A stretch of 64,000 nt of DNA, from contig NZ_JACHMH010000001.1 in the NCBI RefSeq assembly GCF_014204915.1, forward strand, positions 5,667,501-5,731,500, given 5' to 3'. This document shows, piece by piece, positions 19,256 through 40,841 of the stretch (position 1 is the stretch's first letter; the number at the start of each line of letters is the position of its first letter). The stretch is from Crossiella cryophila. GTDB lineage: Bacteria > Actinomycetota > Actinomycetes > Mycobacteriales > Pseudonocardiaceae. A model generated the notes under the pieces. The model was not told the DNA's origin, made no database searches, and saw only the letters and a list, made by a program, of their open reading frames with translations. The translations under genes were made by a program, and so were the position numbers.

Positions 19256-19390
19256 CGGCCAACACCCCGTCCCAGAACGGCCAACACGGCGTACGACAAC
19301 GGCCAACACGCGCGGGGAGGTTGACCTGCTCTCGGCGTGTTGGCCGGTTTCGTACGGTGTGTTGGCCGGAGTGGGACGGGGTGTTGGCCG
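19256..19390. repeat. 22-bp periodic opposed repeat array, copy A
   Basis: Three cores CGGCCAACAC at 19256, 19278 and 19300 (exactly 22 bp apart) are followed by three cores in inverse orientation, GTGTTGGCCG, at 19337, 19359 and 19381 (again 22 bp apart). The 12-base linkers vary around CCGTACGAGAA. The array lies between two convergent genes. In RNA the left and right arms can pair into long stems, so it may act as a bidirectional terminator. The exact 22-bp phase (two helical turns) also suits a protein binding one DNA face. Confidence 0.9.
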
Positions 19391-19401
19391 TTGGGGGTGG
19401 G

Positions 19402-20223
19402 TCAGGGGTAGGTGGGGAGGTGGGGGAGGGTGATGCCGAACCACTGGTGGTAGGTCGCGAGCAGGTCGGACTCGGGGATGTGGTCCTCGTGGCGGTGCGG
19501 GCCCTCGGTGCGGATGAGGGTGTGGCCGGAGAGGGTCACCCGGTCCGCGCCGTGTTCCAGGGGGAGGGAGATCATCACGTTGCGGGTGAAGTGGGACTTG
19601 GGGGAGGTCTGGTGCCACCAGCACATCGGGGTGAAGTCGGGCAGGGGTAGCGGGCGGGGGTCGACCCGGTAGGCGCCGGTGTCGCCGTGCCAGACCTCCA
19701 CCTCGGCGCCCGCGTCGACCAGGCGGAAGGTGCCGCCCGCGTCCGCCTGGGGCTCGCGGGAGTCCCAGCGCAGCGGGCTCAGGGCGAAGCGGCCGAAGCC
19801 GACGTCGGAGAGCCAGACCACGCCCTCCTGGTCGGTCACCAGCAGGGTCAGGTGGTCCTGGGGCGGGCCGAGGCCGGAGCCGTGGAAGACCCGGGCGCCG
19901 GCCAGGGTGACCTCGAAGCCGACGGCGCGCAGCAACTCGGCGAACAGGCCGTTGAGTTCGAAGCAGAAGCCGCCCCGGCGGTTGGTGATGATCTTCTCCG
20001 CCAGGTCGGCCGGGTCGAGGCTCAACTGGCCGGGCAGGTGGATGCCCAGGTTCTCGAACGGGACCGTGCGCAGATGGCGTCGTTGCAGGTCAGCCAGTGC
20101 TTCGGCGGTCGGGGCGGCCGGCAGTTCGGCGCCGATGCGGGCGAGGTAGGCAGCGCGGGTCGTGGTGTCCACGGGGGGAGTCTGCAACCTCGCGCACGCT
20201 GGAGGTCCAGCGTTCTTCGTCAC
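19402..20223 (-). CDS. nat: Arylamine N-acetyltransferase
   Basis: NAT transfers an acetyl (or other acyl) group from CoA to arylamines and hydrazines, and related enzymes release or amidate polyketide chains. The full Cys-His-Asp triad is visible: Cys in RGGFCFELN, His in PQDHLTLLV, Asp in WLSDVGFG. The length of 273 residues is normal for actinomycete NATs. The annotated start at 20223 is a GTG with no strong ribosome site. A GTG at 20172 (starting DTTTRAAYLARIG) is an alternative that removes a low-complexity leader. The gene is convergent with the tandem protease across repeat array A and divergent from the mannosyltransferase gene. Confidence 0.88.
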   Translation of the reverse strand: MTKNAGPPACARLQTPPVDTTTRAAYLARIGAELPAAPTAEALADLQRRHLRTVPFENLGIHLPGQLSLDPADLAEKIITNRRGGFCFELNGLFAELLRAVGFEVTLAGARVFHGSGLGPPQDHLTLLVTDQEGVVWLSDVGFGRFALSPLRWDSREPQADAGGTFRLVDAGAEVEVWHGDTGAYRVDPRPLPLPDFTPMCWWHQTSPKSHFTRNVMISLPLEHGADRVTLSGHTLIRTEGPHRHEDHIPESDLLATYHQWFGITLPHLPTYP

Positions 20224-20420
20224 CCGGAAGACTCACTTGTGCCGGTCCGAGCACCCGCTGACCCCGGCTCCGCTACCGTCAGCGACTACGCTTGCCGGGT
20301 GAGTCGGCCGATGGCCCGAATGGATCACGGCCCTGCGACACCGGCGCGCCCTGACGACAAAGACGAACACCGACCGGCGGAGGCGATGGCGCCGTCCACC
20401 GCCGGCGAGGAGGACACGGA

Positions 20421-21215
20421 ATGGCCGACCAGCGCGACAGCCACGCGGAGAACCCGAGCCCCAGCGGGCCGCCCAGCCCGGTGCTGGTGGTGATCCCGAC
20501 CTACAACGAGCGGGAGAACATCCAGCTCATCGTGGGCAGGCTGCACGCGACATTGCCGGAGGCCAACGTGCTGGTCGTCGACGACGGCAGCCCGGACGGC
20601 ACCGGCGAGGTCGCCGACGAGATGGCCGCCAGCGACAAGCGCGGCCGCATCCACGTGATGCACCGGACGGAGAAGGCCGGCCTCGGCGCGGCCTACATCG
20701 CCGGGTTCAAATGGGCACTGGAGCGCAACTACGCGGCCATCGTGGAGATGGACGCCGACGGCTCGCACGCCCCGGAGGACCTGCCCCGGCTGCTCAACGC
20801 CCTGATCGACTCCGACCTGGTGATCGGCTCCCGCTATGTCACCGGCGGCAAGGTGGTCAACTGGCCGAAGCGGCGCGAGATCCTCTCCCGCAGTGCCAAC
20901 ATCTACGCCCAGGTGGCCATCGGCGTCCGGATCAAGGACATCACCGCGGGCTACCGGGCCTACCGCCGCGAGGCCCTCGACAAGATCATCCAGGATGGCG
21001 TGACCTCGATCGGCTACTGCTTCCAGATCGACCTGGCCTGGCGCACCGTGCAGGCCGGGTTCCGGGTGGTCGAGGTGCCCATCACCTTCACCGAGCGCGA
21101 GATCGGTGTGTCGAAGATGAGCGGCAACATCATCAGCGAGGCACTGCTGCTGGTCGGCAAGTGGGGCGTCAAGCACCGGGCCGGTCAGCTCAAGAAGCTG
21201 TTCAGCAGGCGCTGA
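20421..21215 (+). CDS. Polyprenol-phosphate mannosyltransferase (DPM1/Ppm1 type)
   Basis: The 264-residue GT2 enzyme should transfer mannose from GDP-mannose to polyprenyl phosphate on the cytoplasmic face of the membrane, feeding protein mannosylation and lipoglycan synthesis. The family hallmarks are intact: [12 protein letters not shown] at the start, DDGSPDGT, the metal-binding DAD in [12 protein letters not shown], and the GSRYVTGG segment. It is the soluble catalytic domain alone, without the membrane acyltransferase domain fused in some mycobacterial Ppm1 proteins. GAGGAGG sits upstream of the ATG. The first 15-20 residues are polar and Pro-rich. A strong terminator follows. Confidence 0.88.
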
Positions 21216-21231
21216 GTCGCCCGTAGACGCA

Positions 21232-21268
21232 CGAAGGCCGCTCGGGCGGGAGAACCGAGCGGCCTTCG
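21232..21268 (+). terminator. Strong hairpin-plus-T terminator
   Basis: A perfect 14-bp stem (21232-21245 with 21255-21268), 9-base loop and six T residues directly after form a classical rho-independent terminator. It ends the mannosyltransferase transcript and also faces the end of rbpA. Confidence 0.95.
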
Positions 21269-21331
21269 TTTTTTCCTGGTTGCGCGGGAGGTGCGGTGGT
21301 GCGTTCTAGTCCGGGTCGATCCAGGTGCGGA

Positions 21332-21679
21332 TCAGGCGGAGGTGGCGCTCCGGCGTCCCCGAAGCTCCTCAAGCCGCTCGGTGAGCAGCTCCTCAAGCTC
21401 GGGGATGGAGCGACGCTCGAGCAGCATGTCCCAGTGGGTGCGCGGGGGCTTGACCTTCTTCGCCTCCGGCTGGCTGCCGTCGATCATCTCCGACTCGGTC
21501 CCGTGCAGACGACATTCCCAGGTGGAGGGAAGTTCCGCGTCGTCGGCGAACGGGACGTCGAACTCGTGCCCCTTCGGGCAGGCGTACCGCACCGACCGGC
21601 GCGGTGCGAGGTCGTGGTTACGGTCGGTCTCGTAGCTGACAGCTCCGAGCCGGCTGCCACGCAGAACGCGGTCGGCCAT
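21332..21679 (-). CDS. rbpA: RNA polymerase-binding protein RbpA
   Basis: RbpA is an actinobacterial factor that binds the housekeeping sigma factor and RNA polymerase and stabilises the open promoter complex. The 115-residue protein has the N-terminal tail (MADRVLRGSRLGAVSYETDR), the central zinc-region core (YACPKGHEFDVPFADDAELP, WECRLHG) and the C-terminal sigma-interacting helix (HWDMLLERRSIPELEELL). It lies head-to-tail against the mannosyltransferase terminator and has its own upstream region of about 250 bp with a SigR-like promoter. Confidence 0.95.
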   Translation of the reverse strand: MADRVLRGSRLGAVSYETDRNHDLAPRRSVRYACPKGHEFDVPFADDAELPSTWECRLHGTESEMIDGSQPEAKKVKPPRTHWDMLLERRSIPELEELLTERLEELRGRRSATSA

Positions 21680-21746
21680 GACGGTGTCCTTTCGCTCGGC
21701 TGAAGACCGCCCGCCTTCAGCTCACGGCGTACTGCTTACAGAGTGC

Positions 21747-21772
21747 AACAACGAGGGCGTCGTTGTCGTTCC
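21747..21772 (-). promoter_or_regulatory. Candidate SigR-type promoter of rbpA
   Basis: On the minus strand GGAAC (21772-21768) and GTT (21749-21747) are separated by exactly 18 bases, matching the GGAAY-N18-GTT pattern of the thiol-stress sigma factor SigR. In Streptomyces coelicolor rbpA is a known SigR target. The distance to the rbpA start is about 70 bases. Confidence 0.45.
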
Positions 21773-21928
21773 CGGTTTGGCCTAGTTGGTCGCCCTCGGT
21801 GATCTATTTCACCTATCAACGAGGACTTCCTCCATAGGGATGTCATCGCCGCAGAGTCATGACGCGTTATCAGCGCATGCTACGGGTAGTTCACCCAGTT
21901 GGGGGTAGGTATTGAGGGCTGGTGCAGA

Positions 21929-22738
21929 TCAAGCCAGGCTGAGCTGGCCAACCGGTGTCGAGGTGGGACCAAGCTCACCTAGACGAAAGTGCCGACGGCA
22001 CAGCACTTGGTAACGGACCGTAGCTCCTGCGTCGCTCTCCTGCTGGGCACGGTCCGTATCCGGTACTGGCTGGTCCGTATCGGTCACCGTGTCCGCGACG
22101 AAAACCGTGTCACCCGCTCGGACTATCTGGTTACCCAGGATCCGCGCGTTGAACCGCCCCTGCAAGCCACACCAGCACAGCACCTCCACCTGCACCGCCT
22201 GCAGCTCGTCAGCCAGCTCGAACAGCCGCCGAGAGCCTGGGAACAGCTCACTGCGGAAGTCCGTGGCGATGCCGAAGCAGTAGACGTCGACCTGCACCTC
22301 ATCGGCCAGCTCGGCGAGCTGTTCGACCTGGGCGGCGCTGAGGAACTGCGCCTCGTCGACGATCACGTAGTCGACCCGGCGCCCCTCGGCCCAGCACTGC
22401 CGGACCAGTAACACCAGGTCGGTGTCCTCGTGCACCTCCACCGCGTGCCGGGTCACCCCGATCCGGCTGGAGATCTGCGGCTTCCCGGACCGGTCGTGCC
22501 GCACGAGCAGCAGGCCGCCCCGGCCCTGGCGGGCCAGGTTGTGGTCGATCTGCAACGCGAGGGTGGACTTGCCGCAGTCCATCGGTCCGTAGAAGAACCG
22601 CAGCCGGCCCGAGACGGGCAGCGCCCGCCGCGCTCCGGCCGCGGGCACCGCGGACAGGGCGTCGGTGGGATCCGGTTGGTTGGGTACCGCAAGTACGTCC
22701 ACGGGCCGTGACCCTAACGTGAGGCCGTTGTTGATCAC
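21929..22738 (-). CDS. tdk: Thymidine kinase (type II, TK1-like)
   Basis: This enzyme phosphorylates thymidine to dTMP in the salvage pathway. The P-loop (FFYGPMDCGKST), the DEAQF Walker B-type motif (YVIVDEAQFLSAAQVEQL) and the zinc/lasso region (CWCGLQGRFNARI, and VLCRRHF near the end) are present, although the second Cys pair is reduced to C-x-x-H. The start is a GTG at 22738 overlapping the TGA of the MFS gene upstream, or a GTG about 35 bases later. The first roughly 45 residues are a non-conserved extension typical of some actinomycetes. It is co-transcribed with and downstream of the MFS transporter. Confidence 0.85.
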   Translation of the reverse strand: MINNGLTLGSRPVDVLAVPNQPDPTDALSAVPAAGARRALPVSGRLRFFYGPMDCGKSTLALQIDHNLARQGRGGLLLVRHDRSGKPQISSRIGVTRHAVEVHEDTDLVLLVRQCWAEGRRVDYVIVDEAQFLSAAQVEQLAELADEVQVDVYCFGIATDFRSELFPGSRRLFELADELQAVQVEVLCWCGLQGRFNARILGNQIVRAGDTVFVADTVTDTDQPVPDTDRAQQESDAGATVRYQVLCRRHFRLGELGPTSTPVGQLSLA

Positions 22739-24147
22739 AGCACCGCCGGTTCGGAGTTGCCGACCGCGCGGATCGCGCGGCGGACCGGAACCAGCCAAAC
22801 CAGGATGAATCCGACGATGAAAAAGATCATCATGCTCAGGATCGCCAGCCGGAACGAGCCGGTGGCCTGCCCGATCCCGGCGTAGACCAGCGGGCCCAGC
22901 CAGGAGGTCGAGCGCTCGCCGATCTCGTACACCGCGAAGTACTGGCCCTCCTTGCCCGCCGGGACCATCTGGCTGAACAGGGACCTGGCCAGCGCGTTGG
23001 TGCCGCCGAGCACCAGGCCGATGCCCGCGGCGATGCCGAAGAACTGCAACTGCTCCCCGGCCTGCACGAGGTAGGCCAGCGCGAGCATGATGATCCACAC
23101 CACCAGGCTGCCCAGGATGGTCTTCTTGGCGCCGATCCGCTTGGCCACCAGGCCGTGCGCGATGCCGCCGATGAAGGCCACGAACTGGGTCATCAGGATG
23201 GCCGTGATCAGCGTGGACTGCGGAAGTTTCAGTTCAAGGCTGCCGTACTGGCCCGCCACGTTGGCCACCGTGGAGATGCCGTCGGTGAAGATCAGGTAGG
23301 AGCCGAGGAAGGCCAGCGTCAGCGGGAACTTCCTGGCATAGCGCATGGTGTCGCCGAGTTCGCGGAAGCCGCCGCCGATCTTGCCGCCGCCCAGGTCGGC
23401 CCGCTCGGGCTTGGGCCGGTCGCGCAGCACCCGCAGCGGCACCAGGGTGAAGGCGGCCCACCAGATCCCGGTGAGGATGAAGCAGGCCCGCACCGCCTCG
23501 CTCTGCGCCAGCCCGAACAGCTCGTGGCCCTGGAACAGCCCCAGCTGCAGCGCCAGGCACACCCCGCCGCCGAGGTAGCCGAAGGCCCAGCCCCGTGAGG
23601 AGAGCGCGTCGCGTTCGTCCGCGGTGGAGATCTCCGGGATGAAGGCGTAGTAGACCACCACCGAGGTGCCCCAGCAGATGTTGCCGATGGTGAACAGCAA
23701 CACCCCGATCTGCCAGTTCTGCCCCTCCACCAGCGCGAGCAGGCAGGTGGCCACCGCACCGGTGAAGGCGAACCCGGCCAGCATCCGCCGCTTGTTCTGG
23801 CTGCGGTCCGCGATCGCCCCGGCCACCGGCAGCACCAGCACCTGGATCACGGTGGCGAAGGAGAGCAGGTACCCCCACAGCGACCCGGCCGGGAACACCA
23901 GGCCCAGGATGCTGACATCGCACTGCACCAGGGTGTTGTCGTTGGCACAGGGGGTCGGCCCGTTGCGCGCGGTGTCCGCCTCGGCCGCGGCGCGCGCGAT
24001 CGAGGTCAGGTACAGCGACAGGAAAACGGTGACGACCGAGGTCGGGAAAACCGAGTTCGCCCAGTCATACCAACACCATCCGCGTTGGGTCCGGCGCCGG
24101 TCCTCCGGCGTGCCGAGCGCGGTGCCCGCAGTGTCCAACCCACTCAT
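22735..24147 (-). CDS. MFS transporter of the UMF1/Atg22 family
   Basis: The 470-residue membrane protein has about 12 predicted helices and the family's N-terminal signature (WCWYDWANSVFPTSVVTVFL), with the conserved loop DRSQNKRRML. Related bacterial proteins are poorly characterised permeases; the yeast relative exports amino acids from the vacuole. I selected the ATG at 24147 because GGGAGG lies just upstream; the frame extends to 24282 but without membrane-protein character. The last codons overlap the thymidine kinase start. Two unusual cysteines (CANDNTLVQC) lie in the first external loop. Confidence 0.85.
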   Translation of the reverse strand: MSGLDTAGTALGTPEDRRRTQRGWCWYDWANSVFPTSVVTVFLSLYLTSIARAAAEADTARNGPTPCANDNTLVQCDVSILGLVFPAGSLWGYLLSFATVIQVLVLPVAGAIADRSQNKRRMLAGFAFTGAVATCLLALVEGQNWQIGVLLFTIGNICWGTSVVVYYAFIPEISTADERDALSSRGWAFGYLGGGVCLALQLGLFQGHELFGLAQSEAVRACFILTGIWWAAFTLVPLRVLRDRPKPERADLGGGKIGGGFRELGDTMRYARKFPLTLAFLGSYLIFTDGISTVANVAGQYGSLELKLPQSTLITAILMTQFVAFIGGIAHGLVAKRIGAKKTILGSLVVWIIMLALAYLVQAGEQLQFFGIAAGIGLVLGGTNALARSLFSQMVPAGKEGQYFAVYEIGERSTSWLGPLVYAGIGQATGSFRLAILSMMIFFIVGFILVWLVPVRRAIRAVGNSEPAVL

Positions 24148-24250
24148 CCCCGACCTCCCGGCGCGGTGTGACGTGCCCGCGCAGTGGGGGGACTGTACTG
24201 GCCGTGGATGACGAACCGAGCCGCCCGCAAGCGAGTCGTGATTAATCCGG

Positions 24251-24305
24251 GTATTTACCCCCAATTCGTCACGGTGGATCACCTCAGACCGTGATGTGCG
24301 ACCCC
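24251..24305. repeat. Left direct repeat flanking the TnpB element
   Basis: These 55 bases recur at 25614-25668 with only two differences near the left end; the last 43 bases are identical. The right half of this copy is the 3' end of the MBL-fold gene (GSHITV plus stop on the minus strand), so here it is an orphan duplicate. Confidence 0.95.
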
Positions 24306-25613
24306 AGGTCCGGCGTGGCGCGTGATGATCGACAGTGGGGTTCGGGACAATGATCGTCGTGCAGGTCAGGTACCGCTATCGCGTCGAGCCGACACCGGTT
24401 CAGCGACAGTTGCTGGCGCGCACGTTCGGCTGTGCCCGGGTGGTGTTCAACGACGCCCTTCGCTGCCGGGAGGCGGCGTACCGGGCTGGTGAGAAGATCA
24501 CCCCGGCCGAGGTGCAACGCAGGGTGATCACGCAAGCCAAGTCCAGGCTCGAACGAGCCTGGCTGTCCGAGGTCCCCAGCGTGGCGTTGGTGCAGTCGGT
24601 GCAGGATGCCCATCGGGCGTTCGCGAACTTCTTCGACTCGATCAAGGGCAGGCGGACCGGCCGCAAGGTCGGCCACCCTCGTCTGAAGGCCCGCAAGGAC
24701 AACCGTCAGTCGGCACGATTCACCCGCAACGGGTTCAGCCTGCGGCCGAATGGCAGGCTCTACGTCGCCAAGGTCGGGGAGGTGCGGGTCCGGTGGTCTC
24801 GCGACCTGCCCTCGAAGCCGTCCTCGGTCACGATCATCCGGGAACCGGACGGCCACCACTACGCCTCGTTCGTGGTCGACGTCCAGCCGCGACCGCTGCT
24901 GGTGATCGAGCAGGAAGCCGGGATCGACCTCGGTATCGCCCGGCTGGCGACAGTCGCGGACACCCGTGGAAACCGACGTGACATCGGCAATCCGAGACAC
25001 CTGTCCCGGCGGCAACGCAAGATCGCCCGACTGGAACGGGAGAAGTCGCGTCGCCTGAAGGGCGGAGCGAATCGGGCGAAGTCTCGTCGCAAGGTCGCTG
25101 TTCAGCACAGCAAGACGGCACGAGCCCGGCGGGACTACCACCACAAGCAGGCCCTCACCGTTGTCCGCGAGAACCAAGCGGTCTACGTGGAGGATCTCAA
25201 CATCGTGGGGATGGTCCGCAACCGTCGGCTGGCCCGAGCACTGCACGACGTGGGTTGGGGGCAGTTCCTCCGGCTGCTGGCGGAGAAGGCTGTGCGCTTC
25301 GGCCGGACGGTGCACAGGGTCAACCGGTGGCTGCCTTCGACCAAGACGTGCTCGGGCTGTGGGCATGTCTTGGCGGATCTGCCGCTGAGTGTCCGCACCT
25401 GGCGCTGCCCTGTCTGCTCGGCTGTGCACGATCGAGATCACAACGCCGCGATCAACATCCTCGCCGCCGGGCGGGCGGAGAGGCGAAACGCCTGTGGAGC
25501 CGGTGTAAGACCTCCTCTTGGGGAGGCGCTCGGTGACGAAGCAGGAAGCACCTGGGCAGCCTGGCCGCCGGGGAATCCGGGCGGCCAAGCCGAGGAGCAC
25601 GTCAAGAATTCAG
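24306..25613 (+). mobile_element. Solo TnpB (IS605/IS1341-like) element
   Basis: The interval between the long direct repeats holds only tnpB and its presumed guide RNA; no TnpA transposase is present, so it could move only with help from another element. The exact ends are not certain. GTCAA at 25601-25605, close after a GC-rich hairpin, resembles the right cleavage site used by IS608-like elements. IS200/IS605 transposition does not normally make target duplications, so the flanking 55-bp repeat needs another explanation. Confidence 0.7.
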
Positions 25614-25657
25614 GTATTTCCCCTCAATTCGTCACGGTGGATCACCTCAGACCGTGA
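24350..25657 (+). CDS. tnpB: TnpB RNA-guided nuclease
   Basis: TnpB proteins are RuvC-type, omegaRNA-guided DNA nucleases of IS200/IS605 elements and ancestors of Cas12. The three RuvC acidic residues are present: Asp in GIDLGIARLA, Glu in YVEDLNIVGM, Asp in DRDHNAAINIL. The zinc knuckle CSGCG..CPVC is also intact, so the nuclease should be active. The N-terminal domain is typical (VEPTPVQRQLLARTFGCARV). Of 435 residues, the last 55-60 (after ILAAGRAERRN) are probably translated guide-RNA and right-flank sequence. The ATG at 24350 fits the family; an upstream start at 24335 is possible. Confidence 0.9.
   Translation: MIVVQVRYRYRVEPTPVQRQLLARTFGCARVVFNDALRCREAAYRAGEKITPAEVQRRVITQAKSRLERAWLSEVPSVALVQSVQDAHRAFANFFDSIKGRRTGRKVGHPRLKARKDNRQSARFTRNGFSLRPNGRLYVAKVGEVRVRWSRDLPSKPSSVTIIREPDGHHYASFVVDVQPRPLLVIEQEAGIDLGIARLATVADTRGNRRDIGNPRHLSRRQRKIARLEREKSRRLKGGANRAKSRRKVAVQHSKTARARRDYHHKQALTVVRENQAVYVEDLNIVGMVRNRRLARALHDVGWGQFLRLLAEKAVRFGRTVHRVNRWLPSTKTCSGCGHVLADLPLSVRTWRCPVCSAVHDRDHNAAINILAAGRAERRNACGAGVRPPLGEALGDEAGSTWAAWPPGNPGGQAEEHVKNSGISPQFVTVDHLRP
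25440..25613 (+). ncRNA. Predicted omegaRNA overlapping the 3' end of tnpB
   Basis: In IS605-type elements the guide RNA scaffold overlaps the end of tnpB and runs into the right flank. Here the stretch from AACGCCTGTGGAGCCGGTG onward contains a small hairpin (CCTCC..GGAGG, 25511-25526) and a larger one (25562-25571 with 25577-25587), ending near GTCAAGAATTC. The guide would be the first roughly 16-20 bases right of the element end, that is sequence entering the right direct repeat. Ends are inferred. Confidence 0.55.
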
Positions 25658-25668
25658 TGTGCGACCCC
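25614..25668. repeat. Right direct repeat flanking the TnpB element
   Basis: Partner of 24251-24305. This copy contains the genuine 3' end of the MBL-fold gene (stop codon at 25647-25649) and the last bases of the tnpB frame. Confidence 0.95.
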
Positions 25669-26429
25669 GGTTCGGCGAACTCCACCGGCCCGGCGAACCG
25701 CGCCGCCGCCCGGGTCACCGCGTCGTCAGGGGAGACCGACCGGCCGAGATGGGTCAGCAGCAGCCGACGGGCACCGGCGGCCTGTGCGGTCTCTCCGGCG
25801 TCCTCCGGGGTGTGGTGCACCGGGGGCTCGTCGGCTGGGCGCTGGTCGCTCTCGGCCTCGCACAGCAGCAGGTCGCAGCCGCTGGCCAGTTCGGTCAGCG
25901 CGGGGCAGGCGGCGGTGTCGCCGGAGAAGACCAGGGAGGCTTCCGGGGACTCGACGCGGACGCCGAAGGCCGGGATGCCGTGGTCGACCGCGCGGCTGGT
26001 CAGGGTCAGCTCGCCGAGCTGGACCTGGTGGCCGTCGTGCAGTTCGTGGATGGCGAAGGCGGACTCCACCGGGCTGCGCTCGGGGCCGTTGGTGAGGAAG
26101 TTCGCCAGGCGGTCGGCCAGGCCGGGCGGGCAGTACAGCGGCAGCGGGTCGCGGTCGATGTCGGCGTAGCGCAGCGCGTAGTAGGCGGTGAGCAGGTCGG
26201 CGGTGTGGTCGGCGTGCGCGTGCGAGATCCAGATCGCGGTCAGCTCGGCCAGGCCGGTGTGGTGCTGCAGCGGGCCCAGGGTGCCGGTGCCGGCGTCCAT
26301 CCAGACGCGGGTGTCGCCGTTGGTCACCAGGTAGCCGGAGCAGGGGTTGTCCCGGGTGGGGTAGGGCGTGGCGTTGCCCAGGACGGTCAGGGTCAGTTCG
26401 TTCACCCGGACAGAGTAGTTCGTGACCAT
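25647..26429 (-). CDS. MBL-fold metal-dependent hydrolase (RNase Z-like branch)
   Basis: The protein has the metallo-beta-lactamase motif HAHADHT (about residue 70), further metal ligands in FSGDTAACP and LLLTHLGRSV, and a typical N-terminal LTLTVLGNATPYPTRDNPCSGYLV. This branch includes RNase Z-like and cyclic-nucleotide or phosphodiester hydrolases; the substrate is unknown. The start is uncertain: ATG at 26429 (260 residues) or the GTG at 26405 just before ELTLTVLG. Upstream extension to 26639 overlaps the divergent Rpf-like gene and is not protein-like. Its 3' end lies in the direct repeat next to the TnpB element, and the last residues (GSHITV) are duplicated on the far side. Confidence 0.82.
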   Translation of the reverse strand: MVTNYSVRVNELTLTVLGNATPYPTRDNPCSGYLVTNGDTRVWMDAGTGTLGPLQHHTGLAELTAIWISHAHADHTADLLTAYYALRYADIDRDPLPLYCPPGLADRLANFLTNGPERSPVESAFAIHELHDGHQVQLGELTLTSRAVDHGIPAFGVRVESPEASLVFSGDTAACPALTELASGCDLLLCEAESDQRPADEPPVHHTPEDAGETAQAAGARRLLLTHLGRSVSPDDAVTRAAARFAGPVEFAEPGSHITV

Positions 26430-26477
26430 CTCGGTACTCGTGCCGCGGTTGTGACCGGTGTGATCAAGTCCTACGGT

Positions 26478-26490
26478 GTCCACTATGGAC
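26478..26490. repeat. 13-bp palindrome GTCCACTATGGAC at a start codon
   Basis: A match to GTCCAYWRTGGAC that contains the ATG (26485) of the Rpf-like gene, about 50 bp from the divergent MBL gene start. A second copy lies 99 bp downstream in the same gene. Confidence 0.7.
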
Positions 26491-27111
26491 AGACCGGGTC
26501 CGCTCCGACTGGTTGCCGTGCTGCTCGCCGCGGGGGCGGGGCTGTTCGCCTTCGATGGCACCGCGGCCGCTGATCCGTCCACAGTGGACTGGCAACGGTT
26601 ACGGATGTGCGAGTCCACCGATCGGTACCACGTGGACACCGGCAGCGGCTACTACGGCGCCTACCAGTTCGACCTGCCCACCTGGCGCAGTGTCGGCGGC
26701 TCCGGCCTGCCGCACCAGGCCAGTCCGGCCGAGCAGGACTTCCGGGCGCTCTACCTGTACCGGATGCGGGGCTGGCAGCCCTGGGAGTGCGCGGGCAAGC
26801 TCGGCCTGCGCGATGACCGGGACGCGCGCAGCAAGCGGGTGCCCGACTACGGCGAGGCCAGTTACATCAGCGGCGCGAAGTCGCCGGTGTGGCCGGGCCG
26901 GGTGTTCGGGCCGGGGGACTGCCATCCGGCGCTGCGCACCTGGCAGCTGCGGATGAACGCCTATGGCTACGGCTTCACCGGCACCGGCTGCTACCAGGAC
27001 AAGACCAAGGCCGCGGTGCTGGACCTGCAACGCGCCAACGGCATCAAGGACTCCGGCCTGCTCGGCCCCAGAACCTGGTCCGCCGCCTGGACCGGCAAAC
27101 CCCCGAGATAA
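26485..27111 (+). CDS. Secreted Rpf-like transglycosylase with peptidoglycan-binding domain
   Basis: The 208-residue exported protein has a signal peptide (LRLVAVLLAAGAGLFAF, cleavage near TAAA-DPS). A resuscitation-promoting-factor/lysozyme-like domain follows (WQRLRMCESTDRYHVDTGSG; Glu of CES the likely acid; GAYQFDLPTWRSVGG). A C-terminal peptidoglycan-binding helical domain runs from about 140 (LRTWQLRMNAYGYGFTGTGC, LDLQRANGI). It probably cleaves peptidoglycan glycan strands during growth or germination. The start codon sits inside one palindrome and another lies at codons 32-35. An alternative GTG is nine bases upstream. The gene converges with GDPD across repeat array B. Confidence 0.85.
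   Translation: MDRPGPLRLVAVLLAAGAGLFAFDGTAAADPSTVDWQRLRMCESTDRYHVDTGSGYYGAYQFDLPTWRSVGGSGLPHQASPAEQDFRALYLYRMRGWQPWECAGKLGLRDDRDARSKRVPDYGEASYISGAKSPVWPGRVFGPGDCHPALRTWQLRMNAYGYGFTGTGCYQDKTKAAVLDLQRANGIKDSGLLGPRTWSAAWTGKPPR
26577..26589. repeat. 13-bp palindrome GTCCACAGTGGAC within the Rpf-like gene
   Basis: A match to GTCCAYWRTGGAC. It encodes S-T-V-D using the codon ACA, very rare in this GC-rich DNA, so the DNA sequence rather than the protein may be under selection. Confidence 0.7.
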
Positions 27112-27123
27112 CCCCACCCGCGA

Positions 27124-27234
27124 GTGTTGGCCGTTGTCGTACACCTTGTTGGCCGTTGTGGGCGGTCGGGCGTACCGGAACGGCCAACACCCCGTACGAG
27201 AACGGCCAAGACTCCGTACGAGAACGGCCAACAC
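27124..27234. repeat. 22-bp periodic opposed repeat array, copy B
   Basis: Two cores of the GTGTTGGCCG type (27124 exact; 27146 with one change) are 22 bp apart. They are followed by three cores of the CGGCCAACAC type at 27181, 27203 (one change) and 27225, again every 22 bp. Arms are arranged GTGTTGG first, the reverse of array A. The array fills the gap between two convergent genes, and no other terminator is seen there. Confidence 0.9.
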
Positions 27235-27253
27235 TCGGGTGGGGTGGGGTGGG

Positions 27254-28048
27254 TTAGTGGGGCCAGAGGGTGCGGGAGCGGAGGACTTCGCGGAGTAGGT
27301 CGGGGCGGTCGGTGACCAGGCCGTCGACGCCGACGTCGAGCAGGGCGGTCATCTCCTCGGTGGTGTCGATGGTCCACACGTGCACCTCGATGCCCAGCCG
27401 GTGCGCGGCGGCCACGAATCGGTGGTCGACCACCTTCAGCTTGCCCGCACTGGCCGGGACCTGCGCCAGCCTGCCCTTGACCAGCGACTTCACCGCCAGC
27501 GGCCGGAACCGGCCGCCCGCCCAGAGCACCCCGGCCGAACGCGGTCCGAGCGCGGTCATCAGCCGCGGGCCTGCCAGCCTGCGCAGCCTCGCCAGCCGCC
27601 GTTCGGAGAAGGAGGCCAGGCAGACCCGGTCCCAGGCGCCCAGTCGTTGCAGCAGGCGCAACACCGGGGCGACCGCGGAGTCGGACTTGACGTCGACGTT
27701 GAGGTAGGCCTCCGGCAGCTCCTCCAGCAGGTCCTCCAGCCGCGCGATCGGCTCGACGCCACCGACCTTGGCCTGTTTGACCGAGGCCCACAGCTGGTCG
27801 GCGACCGCGCCGACACCGTCGGTGGTGCGGTCCAGCAGGTCGTCGTGGTGCACCACGACCACGCCGTCGCTGGTCGCGTGCACGTCGGTCTCCAGGTAAC
27901 TGAACCCTTCTTTCACGGCCCGTCGGAAGCCGCTCAGCGAGTTCTCCATGCCGGCCAGCTCGTCCAGGTGCCAGCCCCGGTGGGCGAAGGCACGCGGGTA
28001 GGGGCCGTCCAGGTACGGGTGCGCGGGGAGCGGGAGGTGAGGCAGCAC
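27254..28048 (-). CDS. Glycerophosphodiester phosphodiesterase
   Basis: GDPD enzymes hydrolyse glycerophosphodiesters from lipid turnover to glycerol-3-phosphate and an alcohol. The family motifs are present: FAHRGW, ENSLSGFRRAV, the metal-binding ETDVHATSDG, and VVHHDDLLDRTTDG. The C-terminal half has VWTIDTTEEMTALLDVGVDGLVTDRPD, the usual barrel closing strands. No signal peptide is seen, so it should be cytoplasmic. The start is uncertain: GTG at 28048 gives 264 residues; an ATG at 28117, almost touching the ATG of the divergent gene, would add 23 polar residues. Neither has a clear ribosome site. Confidence 0.85.
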   Translation of the reverse strand: MLPHLPLPAHPYLDGPYPRAFAHRGWHLDELAGMENSLSGFRRAVKEGFSYLETDVHATSDGVVVVHHDDLLDRTTDGVGAVADQLWASVKQAKVGGVEPIARLEDLLEELPEAYLNVDVKSDSAVAPVLRLLQRLGAWDRVCLASFSERRLARLRRLAGPRLMTALGPRSAGVLWAGGRFRPLAVKSLVKGRLAQVPASAGKLKVVDHRFVAAAHRLGIEVHVWTIDTTEEMTALLDVGVDGLVTDRPDLLREVLRSRTLWPH

Positions 28049-28115
28049 CCTCTGAGTGTGCACCGGCGGCGTGGCGTGTGAGTGAGCAGGCCGGGTCCGA
28101 CTAGCGTCTTCACCC

Positions 28116-28472
28116 ATGGAGGTGGTCTCCGGGGTGCCGCTCACGCGTAGGCACGAAGTGCGGCATTGCGCGTGGTGCGGGCGTCCGTTACCCGGTTCCG
28201 GCCGCATCGGCCGACCCCGTCGCTACTGCGGTCAGGCCTGCCGGCAACGGGCCTACGAACGGCGCACCCAGGTGCAGCGCGGTGGACTGCCCGAGGACGC
28301 GGTGGTGCTCTCCGCGGCCGAACTCGCCGATCTCCAGGACCGGTTGTTCCAGCTACGCTGCGCGGCCGAGGACGTCATGACCGCGGCTGAGGACGGCGTG
28401 GAGCTTGCCGAGTTGCAACGAATGGCGGCGGGTCTGGTTGACTCTGCCCGAGGTCTGGAGCGGCTGCGATAG
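28116..28472 (+). CDS. Small zinc-ribbon protein
   Basis: The 118-residue protein has an N-terminal treble-clef-like zinc site (HCAWCGRPLPGSG, then RRYCGQACRQRAYERR) followed by a helical region (DLQDRLFQLRCAAEDVMTAA) that may form a coiled coil. Small proteins of this type are common in actinomycetes, and I know no established function. TAGCGT about 10 bases before the ATG is a plausible -10 box and suggests a leaderless transcript. It precedes the GGDEF-EAL gene by about 60 bp in the same direction. Confidence 0.75.
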   Translation: MEVVSGVPLTRRHEVRHCAWCGRPLPGSGRIGRPRRYCGQACRQRAYERRTQVQRGGLPEDAVVLSAAELADLQDRLFQLRCAAEDVMTAAEDGVELAELQRMAAGLVDSARGLERLR

Positions 28473-28534
28473 TCGGCAACGGATCTCAGAGCCCGACGGA
28501 GGGCTCTTGCCCGCGTGTGCACAGGGAGATGACG

Positions 28535-30607: not shown

Positions 30608-30619
30608 AACGGCTTGTGA

Positions 30620-30666: not shown

Positions 30667-30674
30667 GTGCTGCG

Positions 30675-32859: not shown

Positions 32860-32860
32860 G

Positions 32861-36343: not shown

Positions 36344-36363
36344 GTCACCGGATTGTCCGGAGC

Positions 36364-36402
36364 CGGGTTGTCCGGCGCCGAGGAACCGCACCGGACAACC
36401 CG
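36364..36402. promoter_or_regulatory. 12-bp inverted repeat upstream of the nSTAND-WD40 gene
   Basis: CGGGTTGTCCGG (36364-36375) and its exact complement CCGGACAACCCG (36391-36402) are 15 bases apart; a further half site ATTGTCCGG lies at 36352-36360. Placed 20-60 bases before the start at 36343, the sites look like an operator, perhaps for the gene's own HTH. They could instead form a weak terminator for the NmrA-like gene. Confidence 0.6.
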
Positions 36403-36411
36403 AATTCCGTA

Positions 36412-37275: not shown

Positions 37276-37276
37276 G

Positions 37277-37323
37277 GCTGGTTCCCTCTCGCTGATGTGC
37301 TGATCAATCGAGAGGGAACCAGC
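37277..37323 (-). promoter_or_regulatory. 15-bp inverted repeat covering the ribosome site of the NmrA-like gene
   Basis: 37277-37291 and 37309-37323 are perfect complements over 15 bp with a 17-base spacer. The arm next to the ATG includes the AGGGA ribosome site. It is either an operator for a repressor or an mRNA hairpin that masks translation. Confidence 0.75.
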
Positions 37324-37367
37324 GTTGCGGTCAGCCGGTAAGAAGGCACATTGATGTGCCTGCCTCG

Positions 37368-40043
37368 CTAGGCGTTGAGCCTGCGGGACACCAGCTGCCC
37401 GTCGCCGCGGCGGATGCCGGCCACCAGCACGCCGTCGGTGCCCGCACTGGCGGCCACCGGGCCGGTCAGCGCGCCACCCAGGTCCTGCCAGGCCGTCCAG
37501 CTGCCGCCGTCGAGGTGGCTGCCGAACAGGCGGCCGTCGCGGTCCAGGCCGAGCAGCCAGGAACCGGCGCCGGTCAGGCCGACGGTCGGGTCCAGGCGCG
37601 GGCCGGTGGGCAGGGCGCGCCAGGGCTGCCAGCGCACCGCCAGTTCGCCGGTCAGCTCGATCGCCTCGAAGGCCCGGCCCGCCGGGTCCAGCACCAGTGC
37701 CCTGACCACGCCGTGCGGATCGCGGAAGGCCAGCGGGTGACTGCCGGGCTGGGCGCCCAGGTCCTGCCAGGCCGTCCAGCCGCTGGCGCCGCCGGGGCCG
37801 GTCTGCGCGCTCCACCGCACGTACCCGGTGAGCCCGGTGGCGAGCACCACGAGCTGGTCGCTGCCGTGGAAACTGCGTCCGCACACACTCGGCGGACCGC
37901 CCAGCCGACCCGACCCCACCTGCATCAGTCCGGCCCACGGGCCGCCCGGCCAGTGCGCCCAGGCCTGCATCAGCTTGCGCTGGCGCTGGAAATCCCCGCG
38001 GGCGAACAACTCCAGCCTGCCGTCGGTGTGCGCCGCGCCCACCGGATCGCCGTCGATCCCTTCCCCGCCAAGGTGTTCCCAGCGGGGGAAGCCGCCGTCG
38101 GCCTCCTGGCGGCTGCGCAGCACCCGGCCGGTGGCGTCGGCGGCCAGGATCTCCAGCCGCCGCGCCCCGGCGAGTACCACCACCCTGGCCTGGGCGCCGA
38201 TCGGCTCCGGCCGGACCGGCCGCCAGCCGCCGCCGATGGTGTTGGTGCTGTGCAGGATCCGGCGTTCGTCGGCGACGAAGACCTGGTTGCCGGCCAGCGC
38301 GGGTGGGCCGCCCGCGCGGATGCCGCCGTCCGTCCACTGTGTCCAGTCGACAGGGCGGTCGATCTCCAGGCCGCGGCGGCGGGTGAAGGCGGTGCTGAAG
38401 GTGGTGGACTCGCCCTCGGCGGTGGCGAGTTCGCGCCGCCAGCCGGTCAGCGCGCCGCCGAACAGCTGGGTGACGGCCGCGCTGTCGAGTTCGTTGAGCT
38501 GGCCCCAGTGCAGCCGTCCGCCGTGCCGGATCGCGAGTTCGTGCAACAGGGTCAGCGCCATCCGGTTGCCGCGCAGCCCGCGCAGCATGGCCACCTCGAT
38601 CGCGCAGGACCGCTCGAACGGGGCCGGGGCCAGTAGCGAGGTGCTGCCACGCAGGAACCGCAGCGAGACGTACCCGCCGAGCGCGATCCCGTGCGCCCGC
38701 AGGGTTTCGAACACACCCAGCACCCCGTCCACCCGGGCGGTCAGGTCGGCGTCGGCGGGGAAGAAGAGTTCGGCGAAGTCCATCCGGAAGCAGTCGGAGT
38801 CGTAGTCGAAGAAGTCGCCGACCTCCCACCGGGTGCCGTGCACCAGCCAGGGCTGGTTGTCCGAGGGCCGCCGGGACGGTTTGAGCGCGTCGGTCACCGC
38901 CGAGGTGGCCACCTCCACCAGCTGCGGCAGGCCGAGGGTGGTGGTCAGGTTCAGCAGATCGGAGAGCACATCGCCCAGGCGGCGGTCGGTGGGCAGGCCG
39001 AGGAGTTTGGCCACATCGGCCAGCAGCGGCGGCAACTCCCTGGCGCACAAGGCCTGCCCGATCTCCGGCGGCAGCGGCGAGCGGGAACGTTCGTCGAGCA
39101 CCGGGGTGCTGGCCTGATCGCCCAGCCCGAAGGCGCGGCCTGCCACCGGGAGTTCGGTGCGTGGCAGTGATTTCCGTTGGCTCACCAGGCATTTGCGGTC
39201 GCCGTCGGCCTGGGTGACCGGGTTGATCAGGACCTCCAGGAACTCGTCCCCGGCCACCGCCTGCTCGATCCGCGCGCCCAGCCCGGGGGCCAGTCCCCGC
39301 CAGGTGGTCGGCCACCGGTGCTCGACCAGTGCCACCTCGGTCTCGTCGTGCACGGCCAGCACCGCGGTGTGCACGATGCCGAAGCGGCCCAGCGACAGCA
39401 CCGCCGCGTCCAGGGCCGCGTCACCGCGGAGTTCCCGCACGGTGGCGCCCGGCGGCAGCTCACCCTCGGCGATCAGGTTGTCCCGCAACAGGTTGACCTC
39501 CACCACGGCGGTGCGCTGCACCAGCGTGAGCTGCCCGCCGGAGCCGACCAGCAGCAGTGCGTGCAGGTAGTCGCCGATGGCCGGGCGGGCCGCGTCCCCG
39601 CCGTGTGTGCCGGTGCCCACCGCCCCGGCCAGGCTCTGCCCGCCCGAACCACCCAGCGTCGGCATGGTCCACCGCCTGCCGCGGGACAACCCCGCCGGCA
39701 GGCCGGGCCTGCCGTCCGGACGGGGTATGCCGTCCAGGGCCAGGCACAGGTTGCGGATGGTGATGCCCCCGCCCACCGCCACCAGCAGCCGATCCGCCGG
39801 TCCCGGCTGGGTGATGGCGGCCTGCACCGCCGCTGGGAACCCGGACAGCGCCTCGGTGCGCACCATCACCCCCTCGCAGTGCGCGGGCGCGGAATAGGCC
39901 CAGGCCGAGCCGACCGCGTGCACCGGCAACCCGGCCGCCTCCGCCTCCCGCACCACCTGGCACAGCTCGGCCAGGCTCTTCGGCGTGGCGAACTCGGCCA
40001 CCGGGGCCTCGATGTTCTGGGTCCAGTTCTGGAACGTGTCCAT
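37368..40043 (-). CDS. FAD-linked oxidoreductase (aldonolactone oxidase-like) fused to a propeller-like domain
   Basis: The 891-residue protein has a VAO/PCMH-type FAD domain (about 1-210; ATPKSLAELCQVVREAEAAG, GGGITIRNL, TLGGSGGQSLAGAVGTGTHG). A substrate domain like that of D-arabinono/L-gulono-1,4-lactone oxidases follows (about 210-520; FFPADADLTARVDGVLGVFE, HWGQLNELD). The last 350 residues are repeats rich in Trp (WTAWQDLGGALTGPVAAS, GWTAWQDLGAQPGSHPLA), like PLL/DUF346 seven-bladed lectin-type propellers. Ordinary aldonolactone oxidases are about 420-450 residues, so the propeller is an added sugar- or surface-binding part. No signal peptide is seen. GGGGGA precedes the ATG at 40043. 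Confidence 0.85.
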   Translation of the reverse strand: MDTFQNWTQNIEAPVAEFATPKSLAELCQVVREAEAAGLPVHAVGSAWAYSAPAHCEGVMVRTEALSGFPAAVQAAITQPGPADRLLVAVGGGITIRNLCLALDGIPRPDGRPGLPAGLSRGRRWTMPTLGGSGGQSLAGAVGTGTHGGDAARPAIGDYLHALLLVGSGGQLTLVQRTAVVEVNLLRDNLIAEGELPPGATVRELRGDAALDAAVLSLGRFGIVHTAVLAVHDETEVALVEHRWPTTWRGLAPGLGARIEQAVAGDEFLEVLINPVTQADGDRKCLVSQRKSLPRTELPVAGRAFGLGDQASTPVLDERSRSPLPPEIGQALCARELPPLLADVAKLLGLPTDRRLGDVLSDLLNLTTTLGLPQLVEVATSAVTDALKPSRRPSDNQPWLVHGTRWEVGDFFDYDSDCFRMDFAELFFPADADLTARVDGVLGVFETLRAHGIALGGYVSLRFLRGSTSLLAPAPFERSCAIEVAMLRGLRGNRMALTLLHELAIRHGGRLHWGQLNELDSAAVTQLFGGALTGWRRELATAEGESTTFSTAFTRRRGLEIDRPVDWTQWTDGGIRAGGPPALAGNQVFVADERRILHSTNTIGGGWRPVRPEPIGAQARVVVLAGARRLEILAADATGRVLRSRQEADGGFPRWEHLGGEGIDGDPVGAAHTDGRLELFARGDFQRQRKLMQAWAHWPGGPWAGLMQVGSGRLGGPPSVCGRSFHGSDQLVVLATGLTGYVRWSAQTGPGGASGWTAWQDLGAQPGSHPLAFRDPHGVVRALVLDPAGRAFEAIELTGELAVRWQPWRALPTGPRLDPTVGLTGAGSWLLGLDRDGRLFGSHLDGGSWTAWQDLGGALTGPVAASAGTDGVLVAGIRRGDGQLVSRRLNA

Positions 40044-40215
40044 ACAGACGATCCCCCTCGTCAGTCCTCCCCGCGTGCACCCTTTCGAGGCGCATGCGAG
40101 CTGACAAGTCCCTTCCGGGCAGACCTGGGGGCACCCTCGTGCTGCCACCCGCCCGCCGGGGGCCACGGGGCAGGGCCTACCTTGTCATGATCGTGTGAAG
40201 CTGGAGGGTGGCCCG

Positions 40216-40686
40216 ATGGGGGACAACGAGTTCGGCGCGCTGTGGGAGCGCTCAACAGGCGAGCAGATGCTGGTGGCCATGGCCGATGGCCGGGCCCCGC
40301 TGCCCAGGCACGCGGTGCCGATCGGGCTGAGCCTGCGCGAGGTGGTGCGCGGCCGGGTCACGCTGCGCTGGAAGCCGACCGAGGACGCCTGCAACTCCGC
40401 CGGTCAGGTGCACGGCGGCTACCTGGCCATGGTCCTGGACGACGCGGGCGCGATGTCCTGCGTGACGCTGACCGACCGGTACCGGCCGATGCTGACCATG
40501 AGCCTGCACATCGACTACCTGCGGCCGGTGCTGGCCGGGGTGGAGTACGTGGCCACCGGCGTGGTCGTGCACCCGGGCAAGCGGCGGATGCTGGCCGACG
40601 CGGAGATCACCGACGCCCAGGGCCGCCGGGTCGCGCGCGCCAGCGGCAGCTTCACCCCAAACCTGAGCTACAACGGCAACGCCTAA
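40216..40686 (+). CDS. PaaI-type hotdog thioesterase
   Basis: The 156-residue hotdog protein resembles PaaI/YbgC-type acyl-CoA thioesterases. It has the conserved N-S-A-G-Q-V-H-G-G segment (ACNSAGQVHGGYLAMVLDD) with its catalytic Asn/His/Gly and Asp, then MSLHIDYLRPVLAGVEYVAT. It probably hydrolyses acyl- or aroyl-CoA, exact substrate unknown. I chose the ATG at 40216 with GGAGG in place. A GTG at 40195 could be used on a leaderless transcript, since TACCTT lies about 10 bases before it. The gene converges with the small catalase gene across repeat array C. Confidence 0.85.
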   Translation: MGDNEFGALWERSTGEQMLVAMADGRAPLPRHAVPIGLSLREVVRGRVTLRWKPTEDACNSAGQVHGGYLAMVLDDAGAMSCVTLTDRYRPMLTMSLHIDYLRPVLAGVEYVATGVVVHPGKRRMLADAEITDAQGRRVARASGSFTPNLSYNGNA

Positions 40687-40698
40687 CCACCCCACACC

Positions 40699-40841
40699 GT
40701 GTTGGCCGTTCTCGTACGGTGTGTTGGCCGAACTGGACGGTGTGTTGGCCGTTGTGGTCGGTGTGTTGGCCGGAGGGTGTACCAGTTCGGCCAACACCGG
40801 GTACGAGAACGGCCAAGACTGGGTACGAGAACGGCCAACAC
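40699..40841. repeat. 21-22-bp periodic opposed repeat array, copy C
   Basis: Four cores GTGTTGGCCG at 40699, 40721, 40742 and 40763 (steps 22, 21, 21) are followed by three of the inverse core at 40788, 40810 (one change) and 40832 (steps 22, 22). Linkers again carry GTACGAGAA. Like arrays A and B it fills a convergent intergenic gap and is the only structure there that could stop transcription. Confidence 0.9.

Follow-up and report, generated by a model that had tools for sequence, protein, structure and literature searches.

What keeps two genes that are transcribed towards each other apart in a bacterium in which classical terminators are scarce? The high-G+C actinobacteria are such bacteria, and the separation of their convergent genes is poorly understood. 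The question is raised by three intergenic gaps in a stretch of 64,000 nucleotides of Crossiella cryophila DNA (contig NZ_JACHMH010000001.1), the whole of which we call the window. An array of a 10-bp core, repeated about every 22 bp in one block of each orientation, occupies each gap, and an earlier note had offered two explanations: a protein that reads one face of the DNA, or RNA that folds into alternative long stems.

Three opposed arrays in the window

The blocks of arrays A, B and C, the genes on either side of them (called with a dicodon model made for this analysis and not a curated annotation) and one isolated core are located as follows.

17670..19187, plus strand: trypsin-like peptidase gene, left of array A, convergent (Pfam)
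19256..19309, minus strand: array A minus block, three GTGTTGGCCG cores in 22-bp phase
19337..19390, plus strand: array A plus block, three cores in 22-bp phase
19402..20172, minus strand: Acetyltransf_2 family gene, right of array A, convergent (Pfam, on a longer reading frame to 20223)
26518..27111, plus strand: transglycosylase-like / PG-binding gene, left of array B, convergent (Pfam, on a longer reading frame from 26476)
27124..27155, plus strand: array B plus block, two cores, the second with one mismatch
27181..27234, minus strand: array B minus block, three cores, the middle one GTCTTGGCCG
27254..28063, minus strand: GDPD gene, right of array B, convergent (Pfam, on a longer reading frame to 28207)
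40216..40686, plus strand: 4HBT thioesterase gene, left of array C, convergent (Pfam, on a longer reading frame from 40195)
40699..40772, plus strand: array C plus block, four cores spaced 22, 21 and 21 bp
40788..40841, minus strand: array C minus block, three cores in 22-bp phase, the middle one GTCTTGGCCG
40900..41787, minus strand: catalase family gene, right of array C, convergent (Pfam, on a longer reading frame to 41862)
43848..43857, minus strand: isolated exact core, no phased companions

The core coordinates given in the earlier note are all correct and its observation is confirmed exactly. Array A has three minus and three plus cores, every one of them exact; array B has two plus and three minus cores, with a single mismatch in one core of each block; array C has four plus and three minus cores, one of them mismatched. 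The 22-bp step within blocks holds in all three arrays, a step of 21 bp occurring twice and both times in C, and each array fills the gap between convergent genes, all six of whose products have Pfam matches. In array A the blocks are 27 bp apart and the GGCC motifs lie 41 bp from centre to centre. When up to one mismatch is allowed the core is matched 32 times in the window, compared with 10.8 on average and at most 19 in 100 shuffles. The isolated core at 43848 is exact, but it lacks phased companions and is not counted with the arrays; it is probably a chance occurrence outside the system. Isolated cores make up 7 of the 57 in the even genome sample described below, which is near chance expectation. 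Between array C and the catalase family gene a G+C-rich inverted repeat, separate from the array, can be made out by eye. Rfam 15 gave no match in the window at gathering score.

The 22-bp unit and its place at gene ends

The 22-bp unit repeats every 21-22 bp and is conserved in two places, at GTGTTGGCCG and at a G(T/G)AC some 10 bp beyond it. Its consensus in C. cryophila, from 236 units, is GTGTTGGCCGTTNTNGTACGGN; across the four genomes conservation at positions 16, 18 and 19 (G, A and C) is 93-100%. The 22-bp phase extends to the whole C. cryophila genome, with 452 exact core-N12-core pairs (237 + 215) at that spacing against none in a reversed control. An even sample of the genome, 40 evenly spaced pieces of 20 kb that total 800 kb, holds 57 exact cores where 6.2 are expected. 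Fifty of these are found within 12 arrays, a density that extrapolates to about 150 arrays in the genome, and only four are contained in called genes; cores on the same strand are spaced by 22 bp in 26 cases and by 21 bp in nine. Blocks usually have two to four units, the number of blocks and the spacer vary between arrays, and both block orders are found, minus-then-plus being the commoner in C. cryophila. A de novo scan returned 22 bp as the commonest lag of non-coding tandem periodicities in the C. cryophila, G001, G002 and G003 sets, in which many loci had been picked because of their arrays. Many matches at lags of 21 or 22 bp inside coding sequence resemble ordinary codon periodicity and were left uncounted. 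An apparent strand bias of the arrays beyond 2.4 Mb was rejected as an artefact of truncation. A looser scan labelled one C. cryophila array as in-coding.

The earlier note would have been refuted by genome-wide copies that showed no preference for convergent junctions or no 22-bp phase, and it survived this check; exclusive placement at convergent ends would, though, be too strong a description. Among 180 arrays from four species, counted in loci of 3.5 kb or longer and leaving out shorter ones (including L001-L030 and the 1-kb stretches), 102 lie in convergent gaps, 58 in co-directional gaps, 11 in gaps called as divergent and nine at edges. The divergent-called gaps are 0.8-2.9 kb long and one may contain a missed gene. 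Of the convergent gaps in the even sample that measure 100 bp or more, 5 of 21 have an array, and 0 of 86 divergent gaps do; 99 of 105 convergent gaps are without one. A stop codon often lies no more than 20 bp from an array, the median distance to the nearest being 16 bp for the convergent arrays of C. cryophila.

Of the C. cryophila array junctions, 14 were mapped in Crossiella sp. S99.2, and each has an array in that species as well, compared with 2 of 129 junctions that are array-free in C. cryophila (Fisher p ~1e-17). At eight of the 14 shared junctions S99.2 has a different word family alone, and the A word, GTTGGCCCAANTNGTACG, is found 229 times in S99.2, against a single time in C. cryophila and none in G002-G004. 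The arrays are concentrated in one genus, with looser 21-22-bp arrays in two other genera. Two loci of G229, a genome from outside the genus, contain none, viral contigs gave no match to the strict array pattern, and array A had no match among plasmids.

Helical spacing, RNA folding and mobility

In the plus-then-minus layout the spacers between opposed blocks cluster at 20-23, 30-32, 39-43, 50-53 and 62 bp, a period of about 10.5 bp that matches the helical repeat of B-DNA. The spacer sequences themselves differ, being less than 75% identical at equal length; spacers below 75-80% identity were counted as different, kinship was removed at equal length only, and loci shorter than 3.5 kb (L001-L030, the 1-kb stretches) were included. 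Before degenerate units were absorbed the best period was 10.65 bp (bootstrap 10.45-10.9; nR2 29.6), with 49 of 53 spacers deviating by at most 2.2 bp from a multiple of 10.6 where 25 were expected, and after absorption it was 10.4 bp (nR2 25.4; 54 spacers of up to 100 bp; maximum under a jitter null 11.75 in 2000 trials). Like the other statistics on the arrays, these figures are optimistic because the arrays are related by descent. The bins 24-29, 33-38, 44-49 and 57-61, picked after the data had been viewed, are empty; regularity declines beyond 54 bp (55, 56, 65, 70, 74, 81, 83, 88, 94 and 106 bp). At locus L114, read by eye, an A-type unit adjoins a T-type unit and keeps the phase, at 21 bp. 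This quantisation suggests that duplex DNA is read from a single face. The protein proposed in the earlier note gains support from it, and a folding RNA would not require quantised spacers; in the minus-then-plus layout a 10.5-bp period is not separable from others.

Our tentative preference, held with a little less than even confidence, is that an array is a set of sites for a putative sequence-specific DNA-binding protein and acts as a transcription-unit boundary. All of the sites would face the same side of the duplex, the bound protein may form a cooperative patch or filament, and such a patch could be a roadblock to transcription from both sides that keeps convergent genes from reading into each other. 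The arrays would grow and become homogenised through recombination or the copying of units. The core word would evolve jointly with its putative reader, and such co-evolution would explain the different word at many junctions of the sister species. Long RNA stems and weak covariation at the apex of the minus-then-plus layout, the latter not needed by a pure duplex-DNA model, count against it, as do the lack of a distinct period in that layout, the less regular long spacers, the many convergent gaps without an array and the arrays in co-directional or large divergent-called gaps. A broader proposal is that Crossiella marks its gene ends throughout the genome by means of a putative protein that reads a helix-phased 22-bp address at about 150 places, mostly 3' ends, and insulates genes there, the word having been swapped in the sister species; we consider this doubtful. 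The swap in S99.2 from GTGTTGGCCG to GAGTTGGCCCAA at many conserved junctions would belong to that proposal and would imply rapid co-evolution of reader and sites. If the arrays are boundaries that a protein reads, S99.2 would offer a natural experiment on the joint change of a DNA-binding protein and its many sites.

A rival explanation, which takes up the RNA stems of the earlier note, would make each array a bidirectional terminator or 3'-end stabiliser at the RNA level, the transcript of either strand forming a long hairpin of paired cores. The folds are very stable: array A forms a single stem with about 60 base pairs (-121.9 kcal/mol, z -15.2; other strand z -13.9), and arrays B and C have z values of -6.1 to -7.8 on both strands. 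One trait of intrinsic terminators, a stable G+C-rich hairpin just past the stop, is present at A, B and C on both strands, and the nearness of arrays to stop codons in general favours this reading too. Covariation at the apex of minus-then-plus arrays is weak (218 paired cells against 192.6 +/- 8.2, maximum 220 in 1000 shuffles); the first apex pair alternates between G-C and T-A (paired in 31 of 40 cases, where shuffles averaged 21 and reached at most 30). Similarity of mirrored linkers was rejected as proof of RNA stems, those of C. cryophila being no more alike (0.659, n=33) than non-mirrored linkers (0.679, n=40) or linkers across arrays (0.707); G002 leans the opposite way (0.729 against 0.690 and 0.656, eight pairs). 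Terminator calling in 19000-28000 gave no T-tract site at A or B, and the flanks of array C, read by eye, have no T-rich tract; terminators in high-G+C actinobacteria may lack one. At junction B2|85, where arrays are present in two congeners, C. cryophila has instead an ordinary G+C-rich hairpin, a point for the RNA reading; array C and junction B1|73 each have such a hairpin besides the array, a point against it. Helical quantisation would also be unexpected. RNA-level termination is not favoured, and we regard it as possible but unlikely.

A REP-like or miniature mobile repeat with no host function, whose copies persist where they are harmless, at 3' ends and not at promoters, appears rather improbable. 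It would account for the multiplicity of the arrays, their concentration in one genus and their presence or absence among congeners other than S99.2, which are mostly empty at the C. cryophila array junctions, with a gap of just 4-110 bp at nine of the 11 convergent sites that are empty. Mobility is also favoured by a second repeat, non-coding and about 690-800 bp long, which has arrays on either side, as plus-block, element and minus-block, in the seven copies read; three loci with this element had no match in Rfam 15. According to the available text of PMC3733652 and PMC2817692, REPs are high-copy extragenic repeats of convergent and unidirectional gaps, near stops, in alternating orientations and species-specific families, and the Crossiella arrays resemble them in being high-copy, extragenic, mainly in convergent or unidirectional gaps and near 3' ends. 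The same part of PMC3733652 defines REP/BIMEs by a GTAG/CGTC tag and a palindromic unit. A cognate RAYT transposase gene, flanked by the repeats in the GTAG type, is a further defining trait. The Crossiella core is non-palindromic, the unit consensus has neither GTAG nor CGTC, and the units follow one another head-to-tail every 21-22 bp within opposed blocks whose plus-then-minus spacers are helix-quantised, which neutral spread does not predict. The RAYT family (PF01797) has one match in C. cryophila (G000), with an internal TGA and no intact copy, three in G001 and none in G002, G003 or G004; a RAYT-driven REP was rejected, PF01797 being absent from G002 despite its 203 array pairs. In tag, palindromic unit and RAYT gene alike, the arrays fall outside the REP/BIME class. 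Sister species, moreover, share positions at 14 of 14 junctions though the sequences often differ, and no clear target-site duplication was discerned by eye at empty sites. Even a selfish REP-like origin would give the phylum a class of helix-phased repeats, and that phylum goes unnamed in the survey of PMC3733652, the available main text of which has no instance of 'actinobacteria'. End arrays of the transposase type, like those of Mu and Tn7, left behind by a miniature element, would share the asymmetric 22-bp sites, usually two to four per block, inverted and helically phased, and would fit the many orthologous sites that are empty in relatives; both block orders occur, however, block number and spacer vary, and reading by eye showed no clear target duplication; we consider this origin highly improbable.

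Comparison with other repeated sites

Titles and the openings of abstracts, among the matches listed in our literature search, contained nothing about these arrays, which by that measure may be unpublished. DNA uptake sequences in Neisseria and the Pasteurellaceae are words of about 10 bp, as is the Crossiella core, and often form inverted pairs downstream of genes, where they can terminate transcription. They are dispersed genome-wide as single words and pairs, including within coding sequence, whereas in the even sample 50 of 57 Crossiella cores are in phased arrays and 4 of 57 in called genes; we know of no uptake sequences in 22-bp phased arrays. Iterons and the end sites of Mu and Tn7 are phased sites of about 22 bp that lie on one DNA face and are bound cooperatively, but they occur in one or a few copies at origins or transposon ends, unlike arrays found at many gene 3' ends. 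Reb1 and TTF-I bind repeated terminator boxes at the 3' ends of eukaryotic rDNA. Polymerase-blocking protein sites at 3' ends would be a likeness of function, with no homology claimed, and the eukaryotic boxes belong to a single type of locus; should the arrays indeed be boundaries read by a protein, such protein-bound terminator arrays would have a counterpart in bacteria. The MPTR of Mycobacterium tuberculosis has a 10-bp word, GCCGGTGTTG, which is a rotation of the Crossiella core. That word recurs every 15 bp inside coding sequence, whereas overlap with a called gene does not exceed 40 bp in any of the 180 arrays and the Crossiella period is 21-22 bp.

Phased arrays in Crossiella genomes

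The opposed arrays of 10-bp cores are real, genome-wide, genus-centred and helix-phased. All three arrays that the earlier note had described in the window (A, B and C) were borne out, and its 21-22-bp phase holds throughout the Crossiella cryophila genome (10,058,141 bases, one contig): a whole-genome pattern search found 237 + 215 exact core-N12-core pairs, and 363 + 352 with up to two mismatches, against no match to a reversed control pattern. Forty 20-kb stretches evenly spaced along this genome held 57 exact cores where a second-order Markov model predicts 6.2; 50 of the 57 fell within 12 arrays, and same-strand cores were spaced by 22 bp (26 times) or 21 bp (nine times). The consensus of 236 units is GTGTTGGCCG-TTNTN-G(T/G)AC-GGN, in which conservation of the core is not independent, being the search condition. 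The second block is GTAC in 202 units and GGAC in 33, and lies about one helical turn from the first. Independent of the core search is the 93-100% conservation, in each of the four genomes, of unit positions 16, 18 and 19. Arrays seem unevenly spread over the chromosome: between about 0.40 and 1.74 Mb of G000:C1 (1.3 Mb) there is no exact pair among the matches listed, and the five even samples there have no array, with arrays present on either side. Downstream of the isolated core, positions 43909-48210 of the window encode a protein of 1433 aa that matches the LGFP repeat.

A strict exact scan of a named genome collection, which may lack C. cryophila itself and its close relatives, returned 27 stretches, all from the sister species Crossiella sp. 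S99.2. Among 100 genomes, C. cryophila included, exact pairs were confined to the five congeneric ones (table) and absent from the others; one of the five, G001, we take to be S99.2.

Array patterns and second-repeat BLAST matches in five Crossiella genomes
Genome; exact pairs; looser 7-bp pattern; second-repeat matches
C. cryophila (G000); 452; 618; 85
Crossiella sp. S99.2 (G001); 44; 289; 33
G002; 203; 249; 57
G003; 92; 166; 1 (weak)
G004; 2; 5; 47

Of 385 further genomes of the family, none had the looser pattern more than five times and 51 had it at all; most of these matches are chance, because scattered genomes also match the reversed control. Across the phylum, in 296 genomes that included no Crossiella congener, C. 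cryophila alone was matched. Set beside related genera, high copy number combined with opposed blocks belonged to Crossiella only, among the genomes examined, while phasing as such is wider: in the best outside cases inspected, two other Pseudonocardiaceae genera have their own looser 21-22-bp arrays of related words. One (G351) has GAGTTNGCCGCT-like units at a 22-bp period in long single-orientation runs (loci L176, L177 and L178); the other (G234 and G239) has a 21-bp period (L179, L180 and L183). Two loci examined in a further genome, G229, held no array.

Placement and history of array junctions

The earlier note had placed the arrays at convergent gene ends, and this stands as a preference over divergent gaps rather than as a rule. 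Of the 12 even-sample arrays, seven were convergent, four plus-plus, one minus-minus and none divergent. For gaps of at least 100 bp, arrays were present in 5/21 convergent against 0/86 divergent cases (Fisher p 0.0002) and in 4/121 co-directional ones; for gaps of any length the figures were 6/105 against 0/101 (p 0.03), so most convergent gaps are without an array. Loci of at least 3.5 kb from four genomes, many of which had been picked for holding arrays, contained 180 arrays (95 from C. cryophila, 48 from G001, 25 from G002, 12 from G003). Of these, 102 were convergent and 58 co-directional, while 11 lay in divergent-called gaps and nine at edges. The 11 occupy seven gaps of 0.8-2.9 kb; a lower-threshold gene re-scan suggests that a gene may have been missed in one of these gaps and gave no convincing call in the other six. 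In convergent gaps the nearest stop codon lies at a median of 9-16 bp across the four genomes.

Orthologous gaps of C. cryophila were mapped in four congeners. S99.2, with 94-96% DNA identity in the longest matches, has an array at all 14 comparable array gaps (10 convergent, four co-directional) and at 2/129 array-free gaps, the other 127 being 14 convergent, 83 co-directional and 30 divergent. Position is shared, but the word often is not: at eight of the 14 junctions (seven convergent, one co-directional) C. cryophila has the T word (GTGTTGGCCG) and S99.2 the A word only (GAGTTGGCCCAACTGGTACGCC). At one more, S99.2 has A and the C. cryophila array falls below the T threshold; at the remaining five, S99.2 has T (three) or both words (two). 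S99.2 has 229 copies of the A word, counted as GTTGGCCCAANTNGTACG, against one in C. cryophila and none in G002-G004. Arrays were present in G002 at 3/11 of the C. cryophila array gaps and in G003 and G004 at 0/4 each; conversely, one gap that is array-free in C. cryophila holds a T array in G002. In nine of the 11 empty convergent comparisons the gap measures 4-110 bp; the remaining two belong to G002 and measure 414 and 2564 bp. The array B junction carries an A array in S99.2 and is empty in G002, G003 and G004 (4, 24 and 4 bp left); that of array C carries an A array in S99.2 and is empty in G003 (55 bp), with none seen by eye in G002 and G004. Since C. cryophila and G002 both have T at junction B2|74, where S99.2 has A, the change of word there most likely occurred in S99.2. 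Array-array recombination and a co-evolving reader are candidates for such exchange at conserved positions. At junction B2|85 the S99.2 (A) and G002 (T) arrays share a layout, and C. cryophila has an ordinary G+C-rich hairpin followed by TTT, as if hairpin and array were interchangeable.

A second repeat between opposed blocks

A non-coding repeat of about 690-800 bp with internal nested inverted repeats was flanked by arrays on both sides, in the order plus-block, element, minus-block, in all seven copies inspected:
L032:10789-11572, second-repeat copy
L043:4561-5298, second-repeat copy
L035, L036, L038, L041 and L048, further copies

A 661-base query gave the BLAST matches in the table and none in 16 other genomes. 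In C. cryophila 27 near-full-length copies were found among the matches listed (83-100% identical, the query being one; 83-97% for the other 26), and the true number of copies may be higher in every genome, since scoring stopped at 27 first-look candidates for each. Rfam gave no match in three loci. The two repeats are separable, because G004 has the second with almost no arrays.

Duplex DNA, RNA or selfish repeat

The arrays are most likely DNA at gene ends read by a putative protein, a reading that we hold tentatively. The main evidence for reading on duplex DNA, as we take it, is the spacing between GGCC centres on either side of the change of orientation, because an RNA hairpin would not need whole-turn spacers. 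Plus-then-minus turns of 15-80 bp (n=53, non-redundant at 80%) fall at 20-23, 31-32, 40-44, 51-54, 61-65, 72, 74, 75, 77 and 78, with a best period of 10.65 (bootstrap 10.45-10.9); 49 of the 53 deviate from a multiple of 10.6 by 2.2 bp at most, where 25 were expected. Some spacers could conceal units, so the test was repeated with degenerate in-phase units absorbed. Of the resulting 55 non-redundant turns, 41 lie at 20-23, 30-32, 39-43 or 50-53 and four at 62, the other ten being 55, 56, 65, 70, 74, 81, 83, 88, 94 and 106; bins 24-29, 33-38, 44-49 and 57-61, picked post hoc, are empty. Restricted to 100 bp and below, 54 values give a best period of 10.4 (nR2 25.4), and the 38 from 26 bp upwards, taken by themselves, give nR2 15.9; the corresponding maxima in jittered nulls of 2000 trials were 11.75 and 10.95. 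Because arrays share descent, the spacing statistics as a whole are optimistic. The spacer sequences are mostly dissimilar to one another. Minus-then-plus turns cluster near 28-31, 37-43 and 45-51, values that do not resolve a period.

That the arrays act instead as RNA terminators is a serious rival, if an unlikely one. Array A folds to -121.9 kcal/mol (z -15.2) and arrays B and C fold with z of -6.1 to -7.8, and the cores pair in these folds necessarily, because they are inverted. Linkers at mirrored places show no excess likeness in C. cryophila (0.659, n=33, against 0.679, n=40, for non-mirrored and 0.707 across arrays); G003 behaves likewise (0.615, n=8, compared with 0.641 and 0.658), the tendency in G002 is the opposite (0.729, n=8, compared with 0.690 and 0.656), and G001 offers two pairs only. 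At the apex beside the inner cores there is a slight excess of pairing (218 against 192.6 +/- 8.2 in 1000 shuffles, maximum 220), and T-tract terminator calling at arrays A and B called none. A REP-like selfish repeat, the other serious rival, we consider quite unlikely. The arrays resemble BIME/REP elements in location but fail their defining tests, and we place them among extragenic repeat arrays as a new form. The sole match in C. cryophila to PF01797, the Y1-type transposase family, is at G000:C1:6800204-6800452 and has an internal TGA stop.
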